Source: Alicyclobacillaceae bacterium I2511 (GTDB lineage: Bacteria > Bacillota > Bacilli > Alicyclobacillales > Alicyclobacillaceae). Taken from it: 33,485 nt of DNA. A program made the position numbers and the translations under genes. Location of the stretch: contig QXHL01000029.1 of NCBI GenBank assembly GCA_003584005.1, positions 1-33,485 of the forward strand, read 5' to 3'. Every line of letters begins with the position of its first letter. Positions within the stretch are counted from its first letter, which is position 1. Under the pieces are notes generated by a model. That model was not told the DNA's origin and did no database searches. It saw only the letters and a program-made list of their open reading frames with translations. Positions 7,069 to 15,027 of this stretch are shown in pieces.

Positions 7069-7943
7069 AGGGTGTGGGGATTTACCAGACTGGACAGTTG
7101 CAGCAGGTGCTTCATCGCCACTCCTTTCGGTTCAAAAAGCAACTGGGCCAGAACTTTCTCACCAATTCCGAGGTTTTGGACGCGCTTGTAGCGGCAGCAA
7201 ATTTGACACAAAACAGCGGCGCTTTTGAAATTGGTCCGGGGGCGGGGGTGGTGACCTGGCGTCTGGCGCAGACGGCTCACAGGGTGCTAGCGGTAGAAAA
7301 GGATGCCACACTAGAGCCGGTGTTGCGGGAGACTTTGGCCGGTTTCCAGAACGTCGAAGTCCGCTTTGCGGATGTATTAAAACAGGATTTGGCAGCCCTT
7401 TGGGAAACCTTCTCTGACTGTGCAGACGTCTCTGTGATTGCCAATTTGCCCTATTATGTAACGACGCCGATTTTGTTTCACTTGTTGGATGCCAAAGTTT
7501 CGTATCACACGGCGGTGGTTATGGTGCAAAAGGAAGTGGCAGACCGTTTGACAGCCGCCCCTGGAGGTAAAGAGTACGGTGCCTTGTCGGTGACGGTACA
7601 ATATCGGGCTCGCGTGGAAAAGGTTCTGCAGGTATGTCGTGGGGCCTTTACACCCGCACCGAATGTGGACTCCACCCTAGTGCGGTTGCGTCCACATCCT
7701 GTGCCACCGGTGACAGTAACGAACGAAGAAGTGTTTTTTGCGCTGGTACGAGCTGCTTTTGGTACCCGTCGGAAGACGGTACTGAATTCTCTCGCGCTTG
7801 GGATGGGGGTAGATAAACTAGGGGTTGCGCGGGCTTTGAACGCTGCTTGTATCGAACCCAAGCGGCGTGGGGAAACCTTGAGTATCGCGGAGTTTGCTAC
7901 ACTGTCTAACATTTGGGAATCACAGTTGAATGGGAATGGCTGA
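7047..7943 (+). CDS. rsmA: 16S rRNA dimethyladenosine transferase RsmA (KsgA)
   Basis: It dimethylates two adjacent adenosines in the terminal helix of 16S rRNA during late small-subunit assembly. Family motifs run in order: K-K-Q-L-G-Q-N-F-L at residues 30-38, the SAM-binding F-E-I-G-P-G-A-G near 65, and the catalytic N-L-P-Y-Y-V-T-T-P near 135. The C-terminal helical domain has the expected G-T-R-R-K-T and P-K-R-R-G-E-T-L-S stretches. At 298 residues the length is normal. The GTG at 7047 is preceded by GGAGGTG inside the end of rnmV, so the genes are coupled. The rnmV-rsmA pairing is typical. Confidence 0.96.
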   Translation: MGGTDGIKGVGIYQTGQLQQVLHRHSFRFKKQLGQNFLTNSEVLDALVAAANLTQNSGAFEIGPGAGVVTWRLAQTAHRVLAVEKDATLEPVLRETLAGFQNVEVRFADVLKQDLAALWETFSDCADVSVIANLPYYVTTPILFHLLDAKVSYHTAVVMVQKEVADRLTAAPGGKEYGALSVTVQYRARVEKVLQVCRGAFTPAPNVDSTLVRLRPHPVPPVTVTNEEVFFALVRAAFGTRRKTVLNSLALGMGVDKLGVARALNAACIEPKRRGETLSIAEFATLSNIWESQLNGNG

Positions 7944-8017
7944 GAATTGTTGCCATTTTTTTGCGTTGTCTGGATTGTGGCATATACTCAAGGAGACTGG
8001 GAAGGAGGCATGGGGCA

Positions 8018-8503
8018 ATGCCATGGACCTTCTTGAGCCCCACCCTGGGGGTCATCACTCTGGAAGAATTGGCTGCGGACCTGGTGGCGCAAGTGACGGC
8101 GAATCCACAAGACCGGTTTAGTTTAATTGTAGGAAGCGATTCTCAACCCAAACCGGCCAGCCGCTCTGTAACCTTTGTCACGGCGGTGATTATGCACCAC
8201 ATTGGCAAGGGTGGGCGGTATTATGTGCACAAAGAGCAGCAGCAACATATTTACTCCCTGCGGCATCGAATGTTTACAGAGGCGGCTTATTCTTTAGAAG
8301 TCGGCGCACTATTATCAGAACAGTTAAAAGGGCGCGGTAAAGACTGGCATCTTGAGGTCCACTTAGACATCGGTAAAAATGGGGCTACAAAACAATTGGT
8401 GCGGGAAATTGTGGCTTGGATCACGCAAAGTGGGTATGAAGCCAAGATTAAGCCCGACTCCTTTGGTGCCTCTAAGGTAGCCGACCGATTTACCAAGGGG
8501 TAG
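8018..8503 (+). CDS. YkuK-like protein, DUF458 (RNase H-like fold)
   Basis: The 161-residue product resembles the DUF458 family, whose B. subtilis member is YkuK and which is predicted to have an RNase H-like fold; its biological role is not established. Supporting segments are L-I-V-G-S-D-S-Q near residue 40, T-F-V-T-A-V-I-M-H-H-I-G-K-G-G-R-Y-Y, S-L-R-H-R-M, an internal H-L-D-I-G-K-N-G, and a C-terminal K-P-D-S-F-G-A-S-K-V-A-D. The aspartates in G-S-D-S, L-D-I-G and K-P-D-S would form an RNase H-type acidic site (inference). The ATG at 8018 is chosen because it follows AAGGAGG; longer readings in frame add a basic, unrelated segment. In B. subtilis ykuK lies elsewhere, so its place between rsmA and yabG is a local feature. 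Confidence 0.8.
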   Translation: MPWTFLSPTLGVITLEELAADLVAQVTANPQDRFSLIVGSDSQPKPASRSVTFVTAVIMHHIGKGGRYYVHKEQQQHIYSLRHRMFTEAAYSLEVGALLSEQLKGRGKDWHLEVHLDIGKNGATKQLVREIVAWITQSGYEAKIKPDSFGASKVADRFTKG

Positions 8504-10054: not shown

Positions 10055-10237
10055 ATGTCAAGACGTGGCGGTGTGATGTCGGAGGAGTTCAAGTACGAAT
10101 TGGCAAAGGAACTCGGTTTCTACGATACCGTGATGCGCGAGGGCTGGGGTGGTATCACGACGCGGGATGCAGGGAATATGGTCAAGCGGGCGATTGAAAT
10201 TGCTGAACAGGCCTTGGCTGAGCAGGCACGTTCTTAA
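10055..10237 (+). CDS. sspF: Alpha/beta-type small acid-soluble spore protein (SspF-like)
   Basis: These proteins coat forespore DNA, hold it in an A-like form and protect it from UV and chemicals; they are degraded at germination. The 60-residue product aligns end to end with B. subtilis Ssp[25 protein letters not shown], then [18 protein letters not shown]. Note that the family's germination-protease cleavage site lies in the E-L-A-K-E-L-G-F region. The ATG at 10055 follows AAGGAGG; upstream in-frame codons encode nothing spore-like. A strong terminator follows 25 bp after the stop. Confidence 0.96.
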
Positions 10238-10262: not shown

Positions 10263-10288
10263 GCTGGGGGCTTGCCCCCAGCATTTTT
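10263..10288 (+). terminator. Intrinsic terminator after sspF
   Basis: GCTGGGGG (10263-10270) pairs perfectly with CCCCCAGC (10275-10282) around a CTTG loop, followed by ATTTTT. It separates the spore-protein gene from the cyanophycin genes. Confidence 0.92.
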
Positions 10289-10320
10289 GTGTATATCGAT
10301 GAGTGTGCAGGGATACGCTA

Positions 10321-10360: not shown

Positions 10361-10420
10361 AGCAGCGGGTACAAAGTCTGTTAGCGCCCGTGCGCATAGT
10401 CCGCGAGGAGGGGCACCCAG

Positions 10421-11263
10421 GTGCACACAAGTCGTGGCCCCCTGGTGATTATCGGGGGTGCTGAGGACAAACAGGGGGATTGCAAAGTCCTACAGGAGTT
10501 TGTCCGCATTGGTGGCGGAAAACAAGCCAGGGTTTTGGTGTTTACAGTGGCAACGAAACTGCCTGTAGAAGTAGGAATGGAATATGTGGAGGTATTCAAA
10601 AAATTAGGTGTCTCTGACGTCCGCACTTTTGATATCTCTGGCCGAGATTCTGCAAATAAAGATACTGCGGTCGATTTGGTGCGCGATGCCACTTGCGTGT
10701 TTTTCACTGGTGGAGAACAATTGCGCATCACAAAGTTATTAGGGGGAACTCGCATTGATGCGGCCCTGCATGATGCGCTGCGCAAGGGCATCGTCATGGC
10801 GGGAACCAGTGCCGGGGCGTCCATGATGTCCAGTACCATGATTGTGGATGGCGAGGGGGAGAAAAGTCCTACTTTAGCCATTGTGCAAATGGCTCCTGGC
10901 ATGGAGTTTCTTGAGGGTGTGGTGGTAGACCAACACTTCGCCCAAAGGGGAAGGCTGGGCCGCCTAATGTCTGCAGTTGCCCAATATCCTCACCATTTGG
11001 GATTGGGGATTGACGAGGATACTGCAATCGTGGTGGAACAAGGGACCTTTCGCGTGATTGGTAGGGGGGCGGTCAGTGTGGTGGATGCGGGTGGAATGAC
11101 GCATACCAACCTGAAGACGGTGACAAGCGATGAGTCGTTGGCCCTGTGCGACGTCAAACTGCATATTTTACCTCAAGGATATGGCTTTCACTTGTATACA
11201 CGTCAGCCTATCACCGATTGGGAAGCCTGGAAGGCGAAACATCATGAGGAGCTGAAGGCATGA
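10421..11263 (+). CDS. cphB: Cyanophycinase
   Basis: Cyanophycinase is a serine exopeptidase (peptidase family S51) that releases beta-Asp-Arg dipeptides from cyanophycin granules. The 280-residue product shows V-I-I-G-G-A-E-D at the N-terminus, F-F-T-G-G-E-Q-L near residue 93, the nucleophile elbow G-T-S-A-G-A-S with Ser130, and V-V-V-D-Q-H-F-A-Q-R-G-R-L-G-R near residue 168, all hallmarks of the family. Length is as expected. The GTG at 10421 follows GAGGAGGGG. The stop overlaps the start of cphA in an ATGA junction, so the degrading and synthesising enzymes are translationally coupled. The dipeptidase needed to split beta-Asp-Arg is not in this window. B. subtilis has no counterpart at this site. 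Confidence 0.95.
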   Translation: MHTSRGPLVIIGGAEDKQGDCKVLQEFVRIGGGKQARVLVFTVATKLPVEVGMEYVEVFKKLGVSDVRTFDISGRDSANKDTAVDLVRDATCVFFTGGEQLRITKLLGGTRIDAALHDALRKGIVMAGTSAGASMMSSTMIVDGEGEKSPTLAIVQMAPGMEFLEGVVVDQHFAQRGRLGRLMSAVAQYPHHLGLGIDEDTAIVVEQGTFRVIGRGAVSVVDAGGMTHTNLKTVTSDESLALCDVKLHILPQGYGFHLYTRQPITDWEAWKAKHHEELKA

Positions 11264-13908
11264 AGATTACTTCGGTACGCCACATTGACGGCCCCAATCG
11301 GTTTCTCTATCGACCTGTGCTGGTGGCCCGAGTGGAACTGGGGGAACTTACTTGTCGGGAAACCACAGATTTTGCCCACTTTTCAGATCAGTTGTTGCGG
11401 CTGTTGCCAGGACTTGCAGAACATCACTGTGCGAAAGGAGTTCCGGGAGGTTTTGTCGAGCGGCTTGTGGAGGGTACGTATTTTGGACATGTGGTGGAAC
11501 ATGTGGCCATTGAACTGGCGACCCTTGCAGGACTCCATGTGAGTTATGGCAAAACGATGTTTGCAGGGCCTCCAGAGGGCATTTATGATCTTGTCATAGA
11601 CTGTGAGGCGTTTGTGCCGCAACGCTGGTTGTTGACACAAGCCTTGGACCTCGTGCAGGCACTGCTGAACAAAGGAAGCCTTCCCGACATCAAAGGTCTG
11701 ATTCAGGAAGCCAAAAATCAAATTGAACAGTGGCAACTCGGGCCCAGTACGCAAGCGATTGTGGAGGCTGCGGTACGCCGCAAAATTCCCGTACGCCGCT
11801 TGAACGATGGCAGTTTGTTGCAATTGGGGTATGGCGTGCACAGAAAACTGATGGCGGCGACGTTAACGGGGGACACCTCTGCCGTCGCCACAGACATGGC
11901 TTGTGACAAGGAAATGACAAAAGCATTTTTACAAGACTACGGGTTTCCCATTCCTGAAGGTGTGGCCGTGTATTCATTGGAGCAAGCCCTGGCAGAGTAT
12001 CGCAAGCTTGGGGGCCCTGTGGTGGTCAAACCCCTCAATGGGAACCAGGGACGGGGTGTGACACTAAATCTCAATTCCGAATCAGAGGTTGCAGAGGCCT
12101 ATGGGACGGCTGCTGAGATTTCTCCGGTGGTTTTGTTGGAACGCTATGTCGTCGGTCGAAATGTGCGGCTTTTAGTGGTTGGCGGTACGTTAGTGGCAGC
12201 AGCAGAAAGAATTTCAGCGCTGGTGCACGGAGATGGGCGCAAATCTGTGACAGAATTGATTCAACAGGTCAACGCAGATCCCCTGCGCGGTGTGGGGCAT
12301 GGTAAGCCCTTGAGTAAAATCACAGTCGATCCGGTGGTGCTACACACCCTACGTCGTCAGGGCCTGACACTGCAGTCTGTGGTCCCCCAGGGACGCACCG
12401 TATGGTTACGGGAGAGCGCCAATTTATCAACAGGTGGACAGGCGGTGGATATCACCGATGTGTTGGATGCGTCTTACCGCGTCCTGGCGGAGCGCGTGGC
12501 CCGCTTGATTGGCTTAGATATTTGCGGGATTGATATGGTTCTCCGCGATCCTACAATGCCGGATGTGGCCGGCGATGCGGTGGTGTTGGAGGTGAATGCA
12601 GCGCCAGGAATTCGTATGCACCTATTTCCCTCTGTAGGGAAAGCAAGGGCTGTCGGGGACGCAATTATAAATCACTTGTTTGGTACGGGCGCGGGTCGAA
12701 TCCCTATTGTGTCGGTTACAGGCACCAATGGCAAAACCACCACGACTCGGCTGATTGGTCACACATTGTCAATGACGGGGAAAAAGGTGGGAATGACAAC
12801 AACCAGTGGGGTGTGGATTGACGGACAGAAGGTGCTCACGGGGGACACCACTGGGCCCCGCAGTGCCCGCACCGTGTTGGCAGACCCACAAGTGGACGTG
12901 GCTGTATTGGAGACGGCGCGGGGGGGCATTGTTCGCGGTGGGCTGGGATATGACAAAGCCAGCGTAGCGGTGCTGACAAATATTACGGTGGATCACTTAG
13001 GGCAGGATGGCACAGACTCACTGGAAGACTTAATGCATATCAAATCTTTGGTCGGGGAGTGTGTGGAGGAAAGTGGGACTGTTGTCCTGAATGCTGACGA
13101 TCCGCTTTTGATTCGTTTACGGCCACGTTTTCGGGCGCAAATAGCGCTGTTTGCACAGACACAAGAAAATCCGGTGCTCAGCCGTCATTTGGACCAAGGG
13201 GGTGTGGGGTATTTCGTTGCAAATGGGTGGCTCACAGAGGCACGGGGACACTGGACGTGGCCGATTGCACCAGTGGCAGCGATTCCATTAACACTGCAGG
13301 GCAAGGCGGGGTTCCATATTGAAAACTGTCTTGCCGCAACGGCCGCTTTGCGAGCCAGTCATTGCACGCGCGCGCAAGTGGCTGCAGGGCTGACGAGTTT
13401 TCTGCCGGAAGTTCACAACCCCGGTAGAAGCATGGTTTTTCATCTACCCAATGACAGCTTTGCTGTCATTGATTACGGTCACAATCCCGATGGATTTGTT
13501 AAAGTGGGTCGCTGGCTAAAGGAAGTGCCCCACCGACGGCTTGTAGGGGTGGTGGGCGTGCCTGGAGACCGTTGTGATGAGGTCATTCGGACGTCAGCCC
13601 GCGCAGTGGCGGAAGCTTTCGATGAGTTGGTCATCAAAGAAGACCAAGACAAGCGGGGTCGTCACCCGGGAGAAGTGGCCGCACTCATGGCTGAAGAAGT
13701 CCGTCACCAAAAAAACGATAAAAAATATACTGTTTTGCTGGATGAACTGGAGGCCTGGCGATTTGCGCTCAGTCAACTGGGGCCGGGAGAAATTGCAGTG
13801 ATGTTTTATGAAAGTTTGCAGCCCGCTGTCCATGTTGTCGAACAGTTTGGGGGACGCCCATCGTCGTCTTTGATTTCCAATCAAGTGCCTGCGGGAGCTT
13901 TGTCTTAA
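11260..13908 (+). CDS. cphA: Cyanophycin synthetase
   Basis: CphA builds multi-L-arginyl-poly-L-aspartate without ribosomes, using ATP to add Asp to the backbone and Arg to each side chain. The 882-residue product has the full three-part layout. The N-terminal domain (about 1-160) includes H-V-V-E-H-V-A-I-E-L. The ATP-grasp module (about 165-480) has V-V-K-P-L-N-G-N-Q-G-R-G-V at about 255-267. The Mur-ligase-like module has the P-loop G-T-N-G-K-T-T-T at 488-495, then G-D-T-T-G-P-R-S-A, L-E-T-A-R-G-G-I-V-R-G-G-L-G and N-I-T-V-D-H-L-G. No key motif appears broken. The ATG at 11260 lies within the end of cphB. No terminator was found in the 80 bp before ispE, so read-through is possible. Confidence 0.96.
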   Translation: MKITSVRHIDGPNRFLYRPVLVARVELGELTCRETTDFAHFSDQLLRLLPGLAEHHCAKGVPGGFVERLVEGTYFGHVVEHVAIELATLAGLHVSYGKTMFAGPPEGIYDLVIDCEAFVPQRWLLTQALDLVQALLNKGSLPDIKGLIQEAKNQIEQWQLGPSTQAIVEAAVRRKIPVRRLNDGSLLQLGYGVHRKLMAATLTGDTSAVATDMACDKEMTKAFLQDYGFPIPEGVAVYSLEQALAEYRKLGGPVVVKPLNGNQGRGVTLNLNSESEVAEAYGTAAEISPVVLLERYVVGRNVRLLVVGGTLVAAAERISALVHGDGRKSVTELIQQVNADPLRGVGHGKPLSKITVDPVVLHTLRRQGLTLQSVVPQGRTVWLRESANLSTGGQAVDITDVLDASYRVLAERVARLIGLDICGIDMVLRDPTMPDVAGDAVVLEVNAAPGIRMHLFPSVGKARAVGDAIINHLFGTGAGRIPIVSVTGTNGKTTTTRLIGHTLSMTGKKVGMTTTSGVWIDGQKVLTGDTTGPRSARTVLADPQVDVAVLETARGGIVRGGLGYDKASVAVLTNITVDHLGQDGTDSLEDLMHIKSLVGECVEESGTVVLNADDPLLIRLRPRFRAQIALFAQTQENPVLSRHLDQGGVGYFVANGWLTEARGHWTWPIAPVAAIPLTLQGKAGFHIENCLAATAALRASHCTRAQVAAGLTSFLPEVHNPGRSMVFHLPNDSFAVIDYGHNPDGFVKVGRWLKEVPHRRLVGVVGVPGDRCDEVIRTSARAVAEAFDELVIKEDQDKRGRHPGEVAALMAEEVRHQKNDKKYTVLLDELEAWRFALSQLGPGEIAVMFYESLQPAVHVVEQFGGRPSSSLISNQVPAGALS

Positions 13909-13988
13909 CAGGGGTTCTTGACGAAATGCGTTGGTGGACGCATGCTTAGGCTGCAGAAACTTGCCTTGTCACAGTTGAGGTGAATAGT

Positions 13989-14903
13989 GTGGTCATTGAG
14001 CGTGCCAATGCGAAAATCAATCTAACGTTAGACGTCCTCTATAAACGAATCGATGGGTATCACGAGGTGGATATGGTTTTACAGACCATCGACTTGGCGG
14101 ACATTGTGAGTCTGGAAGAGACAGCGGGGTCTGACATCACCGTAGATGCCACCGTAGGGAATATTCCTTTAGATTCTCGTAACCTCGCTGTGGTGGCTGC
14201 AGAGTCATTTCGTCGCCACAGTGGGTTACGGAAGGGGGTTCATATCCACATACAAAAGGAAATTCCGGTGGCAGCTGGACTAGCAGGTGGATCCGCGGAT
14301 GCGGCTGCTGTGTTACGGGGCCTCAACCGTCTATGGGGAACCGGATACGAGCTTGGACAATTGGCACAATGGGGCGCCGAAATTGGATCGGACGTCCCTT
14401 TTTGCGTGGTTGGCGGGTGTGCTGTGGCAAGGGGTAGGGGGGAATGTTTGACACCTGTGGACCACTCTTTGTTGCCGTGGGTGGTGCTGGTACATCCGGC
14501 AGTGTATGTTTCTACTTTTGAGGTTTATGCAGCTTGGGAAGCAATCGGAGAACAAAAGACAGGAGAAATAATTGAGAAACAAAGGATTGGAGAAATGGTT
14601 GGGAAACCGAGAGTTGGAGAAACAGGCAATGAAGGGATGGTAAGGGCACTTAGTGCAGGAAATTATGCTTGGGTGCAGAATGCAATGCATAATGACTTGG
14701 CGCCTGTAGCCTATCACCTCTACCCGGAGGTGAATGGATTGCGAACGAGGCTGGAGAAAACACTGCAGGTTCCCGTACATATGTCGGGCAGTGGTCCTAC
14801 TTTGTTTACGCTTGCACCATCGCAAACGGTCGCCAGGCGCATTTACAACACACTGCGAGGGTTTCTTAAAGAAGTATACCTGTCCCGCTTCATATCAGTT
14901 TGA
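13989..14903 (+). CDS. ispE: 4-diphosphocytidyl-2-C-methyl-D-erythritol kinase
   Basis: IspE is a GHMP kinase that phosphorylates CDP-ME in the non-mevalonate isoprenoid pathway. Recognition rests on A-N-A-K-I-N-L-T-L-D-V near the start, D-G-Y-H-E-V, the ATP loop P-V-A-A-G-L-A-G-G-S-A-D-A-A near residue 96, I-G-S-D-V-P-F near 133, and M-S-G-S-G-P-T-L-F near 265. GTG 13989 is preferred over GTG 13980 because GAGGTG then sits at the right distance. The 304-residue product carries an extra segment of about 25 residues (about 187-215), with the nine-residue repeat G-E-(I/M)-(I/V)-x-K-x-R-(I/V), absent from usual IspE proteins. purR, which follows ispE in B. subtilis, is absent here. Confidence 0.94.
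   Translation: MVIERANAKINLTLDVLYKRIDGYHEVDMVLQTIDLADIVSLEETAGSDITVDATVGNIPLDSRNLAVVAAESFRRHSGLRKGVHIHIQKEIPVAAGLAGGSADAAAVLRGLNRLWGTGYELGQLAQWGAEIGSDVPFCVVGGCAVARGRGECLTPVDHSLLPWVVLVHPAVYVSTFEVYAAWEAIGEQKTGEIIEKQRIGEMVGKPRVGETGNEGMVRALSAGNYAWVQNAMHNDLAPVAYHLYPEVNGLRTRLEKTLQVPVHMSGSGPTLFTLAPSQTVARRIYNTLRGFLKEVYLSRFISV
14547..14636 (+). repeat. 27-nt tandem duplication inside ispE
   Basis: Two full 27-nt units (14562-14588 and 14589-14615) each begin GGAGAAAT and encode G-E-I-I-E-K-Q-R-I and G-E-M-V-G-K-P-R-V. Partial units flank them (from 14547 and from 14616), both also starting GGAGAA. The stretch is purine-rich, unlike the surrounding ispE sequence, which suggests a secondary, slippage-derived insertion that kept the frame. 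Confidence 0.85.
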
Positions 14904-14915
14904 CAGGGCTGTTTC

Positions 14916-15000
14916 AGATTAGCAAAAGAATGGCAAAAGAATGGCAACAGAATGGCAACAGATTAGCAACAGATTAGCAACAGATTAGCAACAGATTAGC
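14916..15000 (+). repeat. 11-bp tandem repeat array, about 7.7 copies
   Basis: Consecutive 11-bp units start at 14916, 14927, 14938, 14949, 14960, 14971, 14982 and 14993. The later units read AGATTAGCAAC and are identical; three earlier ones read AGAATGGCAA(A/C). The array fills most of the gap between ispE and ridA and ends about 13 bp before the ridA Shine-Dalgarno site. The period of nearly one helical turn means that each unit presents the same DNA face. Confidence 0.95.
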
Positions 15001-15027
15001 TAACTTACAGGAAGGGAAGGATGTAAA

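Follow-up and report, generated by a model that had tools for sequence, protein, structure and literature searches.

A cyanophycinase and cyanophycin synthetase gene pair with a conserved place beside ispE and a forespore-type promoter pattern in Bacillota

The stretch of DNA analysed here, 33,485 nucleotides of Alicyclobacillaceae bacterium I2511 (contig QXHL01000029.1; hereafter the window), carries two genes of cyanophycin metabolism side by side on its forward strand: the cyanophycinase gene cphB (10421-11263, GTG start, TGA stop, 280 amino acids) and the cyanophycin synthetase 1 gene cphA (11260-13908, ATG start, TAA stop, 882 amino acids). The genes share the bases ATGA at 11260-11263 and lie between an sspF-type gene for a small acid-soluble spore protein (SASP) and ispE, exactly as the initial annotation of this DNA had described them. 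Judging from sequence conservation, we consider it likely that cphB-cphA is a functional operon under forespore control. That its purpose is to store food, as nitrogen or amino acids, we put at about an even chance. Location alone is a weak argument for a role in sporulation, because housekeeping genes (metS, ksgA, ispE, glmU, prs) and sporulation genes are intermixed in this neighborhood.

The position of the pair is conserved well beyond the window. Loci were compared in four groups: the window's own family (f1), the other family of its order (f2), other families of its class with a syntenic locus, and the rest of the phylum. CphA was scored as present in the class and phylum genome searches at E 1e-100 or better, and loci cut by contig ends (L081, L084, L085, L086, L090, L092, and L117) were excluded from the group tallies. 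CphA occurs in 37/37 f1 genomes and 17/18 f2 genomes, some of them cut by contig ends, and wherever the flanks in the order are long enough, cphA is preceded by cphB and followed by ispE. The sole f2 genome without CphA (G052) lacks IspE as well and is only 73% complete, for which reason a loss of CphA there was dropped as an interpretation. Beyond the order, CphA was found in 62 of 398 genomes of the class (members of the order included) and in 123 of 398 genomes of the phylum. The phylum sample consists of 109 loci from 108 of the 121 other CphA-positive genomes (G449 contributes 2 loci and 13 genomes were left out), 29 of them with 1.5 kb flanks and 80 retrieved separately. Among loci with room for it, ispE lies no more than about 1.5 kb downstream of cphA in 36/36 from f1, 11/11 from f2, 16/16 from other syntenic class families, and 98/109 from the phylum. 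Counted from the aligned start codon, cphB adjoins cphA in 177 of 181 loci with room, and the 4-base overlap is found in 64 of these 177 adjacent pairs and in 32 of 38 f1 loci. The side toward the spore protein gene is more restricted. An sspF-type gene on the same strand precedes cphB in 36/38 f1, 13/15 f2, and 17/17 other syntenic class loci, and the order sspF-cphBA-ispE is common to class families f14, f22, f29, f36, f37, and f44, while 6 class loci from f11, f19, f34, f5, and f59 do not have it. Among the 109 phylum loci, many with short flanks, sspF was recognized upstream in 2 and veg in 13; the phylum-wide link is cphBA-ispE, not sspF. The initial annotation had proposed comparing the placement of cphB-cphA across spore-forming Bacillota, and that placement proves conserved rather than random, in the order, in the 6 class families, and in the 98 of 109 phylum loci that keep cphA next to ispE. 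Two class loci (L112 in f29 and L119 in f36) have about 1.3 kb between cphA and ispE, space for an extra gene, and in L074 (genome G048) the sspF-like gene before cphB is on the opposite strand.

Genomes that lack the pair were examined for the corresponding site in a set of 30 cphA-less genomes, 29 of them positive for SpoIVA and one (G055) not scored for it. All 11 of the cphA-less class genomes examined have an empty site, yabG-veg-sspF-ispE without cphBA. In the other 19, drawn from elsewhere in the phylum, veg, sspF, and ispE were in no case recognized together; a veg match was seen in one of them, L308. Plasmid records with CphA matches numbered 152, all below 60% identity, 19 of which cover at least 80% of the query, and a scan of genome contigs with the single protein returned 6 distant loci only.

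Both proteins clear the curated cut-offs of their families. CphB (peptidase S51) scores 309 bits against TIGR02069, with a cut-off of 126.6, versus 25 bits against the PepE model, under the cut-off of 156, and its best solved structure is the cyanophycinase 7uqv (E 4e-76). Ser130, the nucleophile, is the serine of the GTSAGA motif and is present in 176/176 aligned CphBs; S130, D170-Q171-H172, R176, R178, and E199 are each found in 175 or 176 of the 176 (one protein has an X). We take the D-Q-H, arginine, and glutamate residues, His172 and Glu199 among them, to be catalytic. CphA, with its N, ATP-grasp, and Mur-ligase domains, scores 1105 bits against TIGR02068 (cut-off 850) over residues 2-863, has PF18921, PF08443, PF08245, and PF02875 all above cut-off, and finds its best solved structures in the cyanophycin synthetases 7wac and 7lg5. 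Against the sister species, cphB has a dN/dS of 0.053 and cphA one of 0.089, with 4 neighboring genes between 0.015 and 0.117, ratios that indicate purifying selection on both genes.

The active sites of CphA were compared with residues named for cyanobacterial enzymes in 2 papers (PMC9262961, PMC9427784), and 15 of the 17 residues checked match. The ligase-site residues K217, K257, R303, R317, N388, S390, R452, K492, E551, D578, and H579 are present. The 2 departures are in the ATP-grasp site, where Gln263 (codon at 12046-12048) replaces the catalytic His267 of a loop and Asp212 replaces Glu215. The statement in the initial annotation that the main catalytic motifs are intact therefore holds for Ser130 of CphB and for these 15 CphA residues and needs qualifying at 2 positions. 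Glutamine at the His267 position is found in 38/38 f1 CphAs, 14/14 from f2 with the residue, 16/17 from other syntenic class loci, 6/6 from non-syntenic class loci, and 100/109 from the phylum, as well as in 3 of 6 rows from outside Bacillota; aspartate at the Glu215 position is found in 104 of 109 phylum CphAs. Since this is the usual state in Bacillota and the glutamine also occurs outside them, the replacements are no sign of damage, and the idea of a CphA made defective by Gln263 was dropped. The window CphA is not a cyanobacterial CphA1 in the narrow sense of having both His267 and Glu215, residues that, on the alignments, we do not take as defining CphA1. Its N domain contains the motif Cx19HxxEH (C57, H77, E80, H81), which according to the accessible text of PMC9262961 makes primers and is found in 83% of CphA1s and absent from CphA2; CphA2 as an identity for the window protein was ruled out by the presence of this motif.

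The case for forespore control comes from the region upstream of cphB. A recurrent motif in the sspF-cphB gaps, GYATA-N15-GG..A...TA, was first spotted by eye in 8 f1 and 3 f2 upstream regions, and corresponds to a pattern of the sigma-F (early forespore) type, GYATA-N14/15/16-GGNNANNNTA. The putative promoter in the window, at 10291-10320 on the forward strand, reads GTATA, 15 nt, GGATACGCTA, and directly follows the hairpin and T-run behind sspF. It is the top site of the gap, with a score of 18.4 out of 20.4. Taken singly this site has p 0.011, so that the promoter case rests on conservation. Six sigma consensus patterns were scored in every upstream region, with first-order Markov resamplings rather than exact dinucleotide shuffles as the shuffle controls. 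With the looser of 2 start rules, the scan gave sigma-F z-scores of 19.8 in f1 (n=38), 9.4 in other class families (n=17), and 16.8 in the phylum (n=104), and the scores peaked sharply at spacers of 15 (f1, phylum), 15-16 (class), and 14 (f2, n=15). In f1, the class, and the phylum, none of 100 consensus patterns with permuted columns scored as high as the real one. In sets anchored on the IGGAED codon, which reduced f1 from 38 to 35 and the phylum from 109 to 92 regions (anchor absent or region cut), strong sites with spacers of 15-16 were found in 30/35 f1, 1/15 f2, 14/17 class, and 64/92 phylum regions, compared with fractions of shuffles as good of 0.09, 0.13, 0.07, and 0.24. With spacers of 14-16 (13-16 for f2), the counts were 32/35, 10/15, 14/17, and 78/92. 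Sites 45-95 nt before the IGGAED codon numbered 24/35, 5/15, 12/17, and 65/92, with shuffle means of 1.2, 0.5, 0.6, and 6.7. Removal of similar upstream regions left 105 of 159 and a sigma-F z of 25.3. The site also follows the length of the gap, being present in 53 of 56 loci where sspF and cphB are at least 110 nt apart and in 0 of 8 with a shorter gap. In 7 of these 8, transcription of the forespore gene sspF could run on into cphBA; the exception is L074, with its inverted sspF. For sigma-A, the regions upstream of cphB showed no enrichment, with z from -0.2 to 0.9 across the groups. Sigma-E, the first guess from the window, failed the scan at the same place (z -1.7 to 3.6).

Other genes served to calibrate the scan. 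At the same loci, veg scored for sigma-A (z 12.7-33), yabG for sigma-K (10-14), and spoVG for sigma-H (6.7-18.7), matching the sigma assignments of these genes in Bacillus subtilis. Upstream of spoIIR, a sigma-F gene, sigma-F reached z 14.7 with the peak at spacer 15, as for cphB, and a -35 element that was mostly GTTTA (best 30 loci, of 48 genomes with a match). The sspF upstream regions scored for sigma-G (z 11.9 in f1, 4.6 in f2, 5.6 in the class), and at spacers of 15-16 sigma-F stayed at z 2.2 or below upstream of ispE, purR, and ridA. A strong sigma-H-like score (z 13.2) was seen in the ispE upstream regions of the phylum loci (L135-L243).

Cyanophycin-derived dipeptides require a further enzyme in the proposed pathway, and the beta-Asp-Arg dipeptidase that the initial annotation suggested looking for was found. 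The window genome encodes an isoaspartyl dipeptidase, IadA (G000:C166:103772-104932), with 503 bits against TIGR01975 (cut-off 331); IaaA (PF01112) was not found in that genome. Of the 55 genomes searched, 47 have an IadA match, which exceeds the cut-off in 46; by group, these are 34/34 in f1 (G026 partial), 13/18 in f2, and 0/3 outside the order. Upstream of iadA, in the best 30 of the 47, sigma-F has z 5.9 and again peaks at spacer 15. Under a loose threshold, 17/30 of these genes have a sigma-F-like site 38-52 nt before the iadA start, where shuffles average 2.0 and reach 5 at most; under a strict threshold 10/30 have one, with shuffles averaging 0.2 and reaching no more than 2 (L244, L309-L337). 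On the genome scale, SpoIVA is found in 119 of the 123 CphA-positive phylum genomes (Fisher p 5e-7, uncorrected for relatedness; the 2 genome lists were matched by eye, and the outcome agrees with the search totals). The 4 without SpoIVA are 61-90% complete assemblies from families that hold SpoIVA-positive members. The initial annotation had linked the pair to sporulation by location, and that link is now partly supported, by a conserved placement, 11 empty sites out of 11, and a sigma-F-type site with internal controls.

We picture the following sequence of events. Sigma-F would switch on cphB-cphA in the early forespore, where CphA would join aspartate and arginine into cyanophycin, its Cx19HxxEH site being expected to allow it to make its own primers. 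The polymer would accumulate in the forespore until CphB, at a later stage, cut it to beta-Asp-Arg, which IadA, encoded elsewhere in the genome, would split to free aspartate and arginine. The result would be a store of nitrogen and amino acids, built up in the forespore and drawn on as the spore matures or germinates, and the spores of many spore-formers may be loaded with such a built-in nitrogen reserve. The logic of storing now and digesting on germination would be that of the SASPs and their germination protease, an amino acid store that the forespore makes and germination uses up. The likeness is in logic only, cyanophycin being a non-ribosomal polymer.

Several points weigh against this picture, some of them against the choice of sigma factor. 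The f1 set, and partly f2, are not independent of the discovery of the motif, while the other-class and phylum sets are. In f2, spacers of 15-16 fail (the 1/15 strong sites given above, with 40/100 permutations as good), and the z of 9.7 at spacer 14 was obtained with a spacer picked after seeing the scan. Chance sites are frequent in the AT-rich phylum set, where 0.243 of shuffles are as good at spacers of 15-16. Among 8 scored phylum loci away from ispE, 4 from f123 keep a GTATA-N15 site and 4 from f74 have weak or misplaced ones; 2 non-syntenic class loci also score weakly, and no good sigma-F site precedes iadA in the window genome. The phylum ispE regions give weak sigma-F scores themselves (z 2.2; 3.8 in shorter regions; 4.6 at spacer 14). 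The cphB regions score for sigma-G too (z 8.5 in f1, 8.9 in the phylum), as do those of sspF for sigma-F (z 4.5 in f1, 6.3 in f2, 5.3 in the class), and because each scores for both, the scan separates the 2 factors in part only. A -35 and a -10 element at the correct spacing are conserved upstream of cphB under the consensus we used for sigma-F, with the overlap with sigma-G remaining. These scores, together with the 8 short gaps that lack the site, 7 of them open to read-through from sspF, lend some weight to a sigma-G or mixed sigma-F/sigma-G promoter, or to read-through, all of which would place expression in the forespore at a later point than sigma-F and are compatible with a store. The spacer of 14-16, not 18, and its agreement with that of spoIIR argue the other way, as does the GG of the -10 element, which when masked from the search is still present in 34/37 sites of Bacilli (17/19, 9/9, and 8/9; 3.5 expected). 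The same GG is found in only 24/72 sites of the phylum set (5.3 expected). On this difference sigma-F is favored in Bacilli and mixed control elsewhere is possible, and overall we give the later or mixed alternative perhaps a one-in-four standing, that is, rather unlikely.

Other explanations leave the promoter aside or accept it and dispute the purpose. Most described uses of cyanophycin are vegetative, and the pair has many housekeeping neighbors, so a general vegetative reserve of nitrogen and carbon, with the proximity to sspF coincidental, has to be considered. Growing cultures of Clostridium ljungdahlii contain granules and are labeled by anti-Arg (PMC13241827), and genes for arginine degradation are induced under lithotrophic conditions, a response that the authors tie to cyanophycin (PMC5640608). 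The granules mean that vegetative use of cyanophycin may occur, which is a further point against our picture, as is the lack of a CphA match at E 1e-100 in 216 of 335 SpoIVA-positive genomes, on account of which cphA can only be an optional part of sporulation. Still, the absence of sigma-A enrichment at cphB, in loci where veg scores 12.7-33, the enrichment of the sigma-F site in 4 groups, and the 119 of 123 CphA-positive genomes that have SpoIVA make a vegetative reserve improbable. A product made in the forespore for spore structure or assembly (matrix, core packing, or charge) instead of food would agree with the regulatory part of our proposal, and a C. perfringens study, as PMC5532821 and PMC6174930 cite it, implicates cyanophycin in the assembly and morphology of spores, which is outside support for our picture as well. 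A linked cyanophycinase (177/181 loci) and IadA (47 of the 55 genomes searched) suggest instead a polymer meant for breakdown, and we see the structural role as the less favored, though the strongest, of these competitors, with something under one chance in three. Lastly, the genes could be degraded or newly acquired and without function. Split cphA genes in G010 and G405 and single in-frame stops in G040, G425, G571, and G595 count toward this and against a functional pair, and the CphAs of f34, f5, and f59, which lie away from ispE and group toward cyanobacterial and proteobacterial ones, suggest that transfer probably happens. With dN/dS of 0.05-0.09, conserved active sites, and retention throughout the order, this explanation is already contradicted for the window and has next to no credibility. 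In G010, a two-contig genome, cphA (L088) is split over 2 frames, possibly by a frameshift or a sequencing error.

The ispE-linked form appears to be old. Distance matrices of CphA and IspE from 156 loci correlate with a Spearman coefficient of 0.61 (null maximum 0.12), and those of CphA and CphB with 0.72. A FastTree phylogeny of 91 rows, made from a subset of the CphA proteins and with its root not established, places the 22 syntenic class CphAs in one group (support 100). Of the 11 CphAs from phylum loci that lack ispE nearby, 9 cluster with one non-syntenic class CphA (support 99), and L141 and L169 lie elsewhere. Together with 2 long-branched phylum rows, the CphAs of f34, f5, and f59 group toward those of cyanobacteria, proteobacteria, and Bacteroidota (support 93, not strong), which makes transfer probable. 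These patterns are most simply read as ancient vertical inheritance of the ispE-linked form, which parts of the class then lost, while a few families gained cphA independently. What is known of sporulation comes mostly from B. subtilis, which is not known to have cphBA and whose line would be among the losses. We entertain, as a tentative idea somewhat short of even odds, that an early ancestor of Bacillota already had a sigma-F-driven, ispE-anchored cyanophycin cycle in its sporulation program, that parts of Bacilli have since lost it cleanly, that many non-model endospores carry a non-ribosomal store of arginine and aspartate made in the forespore and spent on germination, and that iadA was drawn into the regulon in the window's order. 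If forespores are loaded with cyanophycin in many lineages, the view of spore stores and of what powers germination would change, and scattered hints from C. perfringens, segmented filamentous bacteria (SFB), and C. ljungdahlii would have a common cause.

A mutant from the 2016 study of C. perfringens cphA by Liu reportedly gave fewer, smaller spores. There too CphA occurs in a spore-former, a clostridial one, and a spore role has been reported for it. Neither the kinds of enzyme nor the idea of a link with sporulation is new. As far as the literature search shows, what is new is the position kept across the phylum, the promoter of forespore type, calibrated on other genes, and a pathway that is complete in most genomes of the window's order. 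The search, with most subscription journals outside its reach, returned nothing on cyanophycin with Alicyclobacillus or on cphA with ispE and sspF, a single paper for cyanophycin and forespore, on another topic to judge by its title and abstract, and, within the same limits, no report of sigma-F control or of a phylum-wide position of cphBA, the linkage in SFB excepted. There, in the available portions of PMC9482736, cphAB-ispE is found before a ger operon, and the authors propose cyanophycin as an amino acid source for germination. The linkage is the same as in the window, but it is described for SFB only, lies beside ger instead of sspF, and comes in those portions with no promoter analysis. 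For C. ljungdahlii, the accessible text of PMC13241827 has cphB induced among sporulation genes, and extraction of the polymer failed. A 2023 survey (PMC10206079, seen in part) found CphA1 and cyanophycinase genes clustered in 81% of 658 genomes and a cyanophycinase in 100% of 179 CphA1-encoding Firmicutes. The window pair consists of the same 2 families, adjacent, and differs in its fixed position beside ispE and its forespore-type promoter. In the same partial text, IadA and/or IaaA occur in just 10.1% of those 179 Firmicutes, and the Firmicutes enzyme is called undiscovered; in the window's order most genomes encode IadA, which supplies the last step of the pathway.

The genes around the pair follow the order yabG, veg, the sspF-type SASP gene, cphB, cphA, ispE, and ridA, with spoVT, a YabQ-type gene, and the start of spoIIE farther downstream. 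The SASP gene (10055-10237, forward strand, 60 amino acids, alpha/beta type) matches PF00269 with 32.2 bits (cut-off 22) and has no NCBIfam match. Behind it, at 10263-10288 on the same strand, a hairpin read from the sequence (GCTGGGGG/CCCCCAGC) with a T-run may terminate the sspF transcript; the hairpin forms in the fold, and the stretch as a whole folds barely above shuffles (z -1.13). A putative ribosome-binding site for cphB, GAGGAGGGG, is at 10405-10413 on the forward strand. Downstream, ispE (13980-14903, forward strand, TIGR00154 238 bits) is probably outside the function. Its interior has imperfect 27-base repeats at 14551-14622, and IspE has 307 amino acids versus 294 in the sister species. 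An array of 11-base tandem repeats occupies 14915-15000 in the ispE-ridA gap. In the sister species, ispE and ridA are separated by purR (L039 1357-2151); the window has no purR at the corresponding place (14904-15027), and the window genome has just one partial purR match, at 31% identity. Between ksgA and yabG, an unnamed gene at 7913-8503 encodes an RNaseH-like protein of PF04308.

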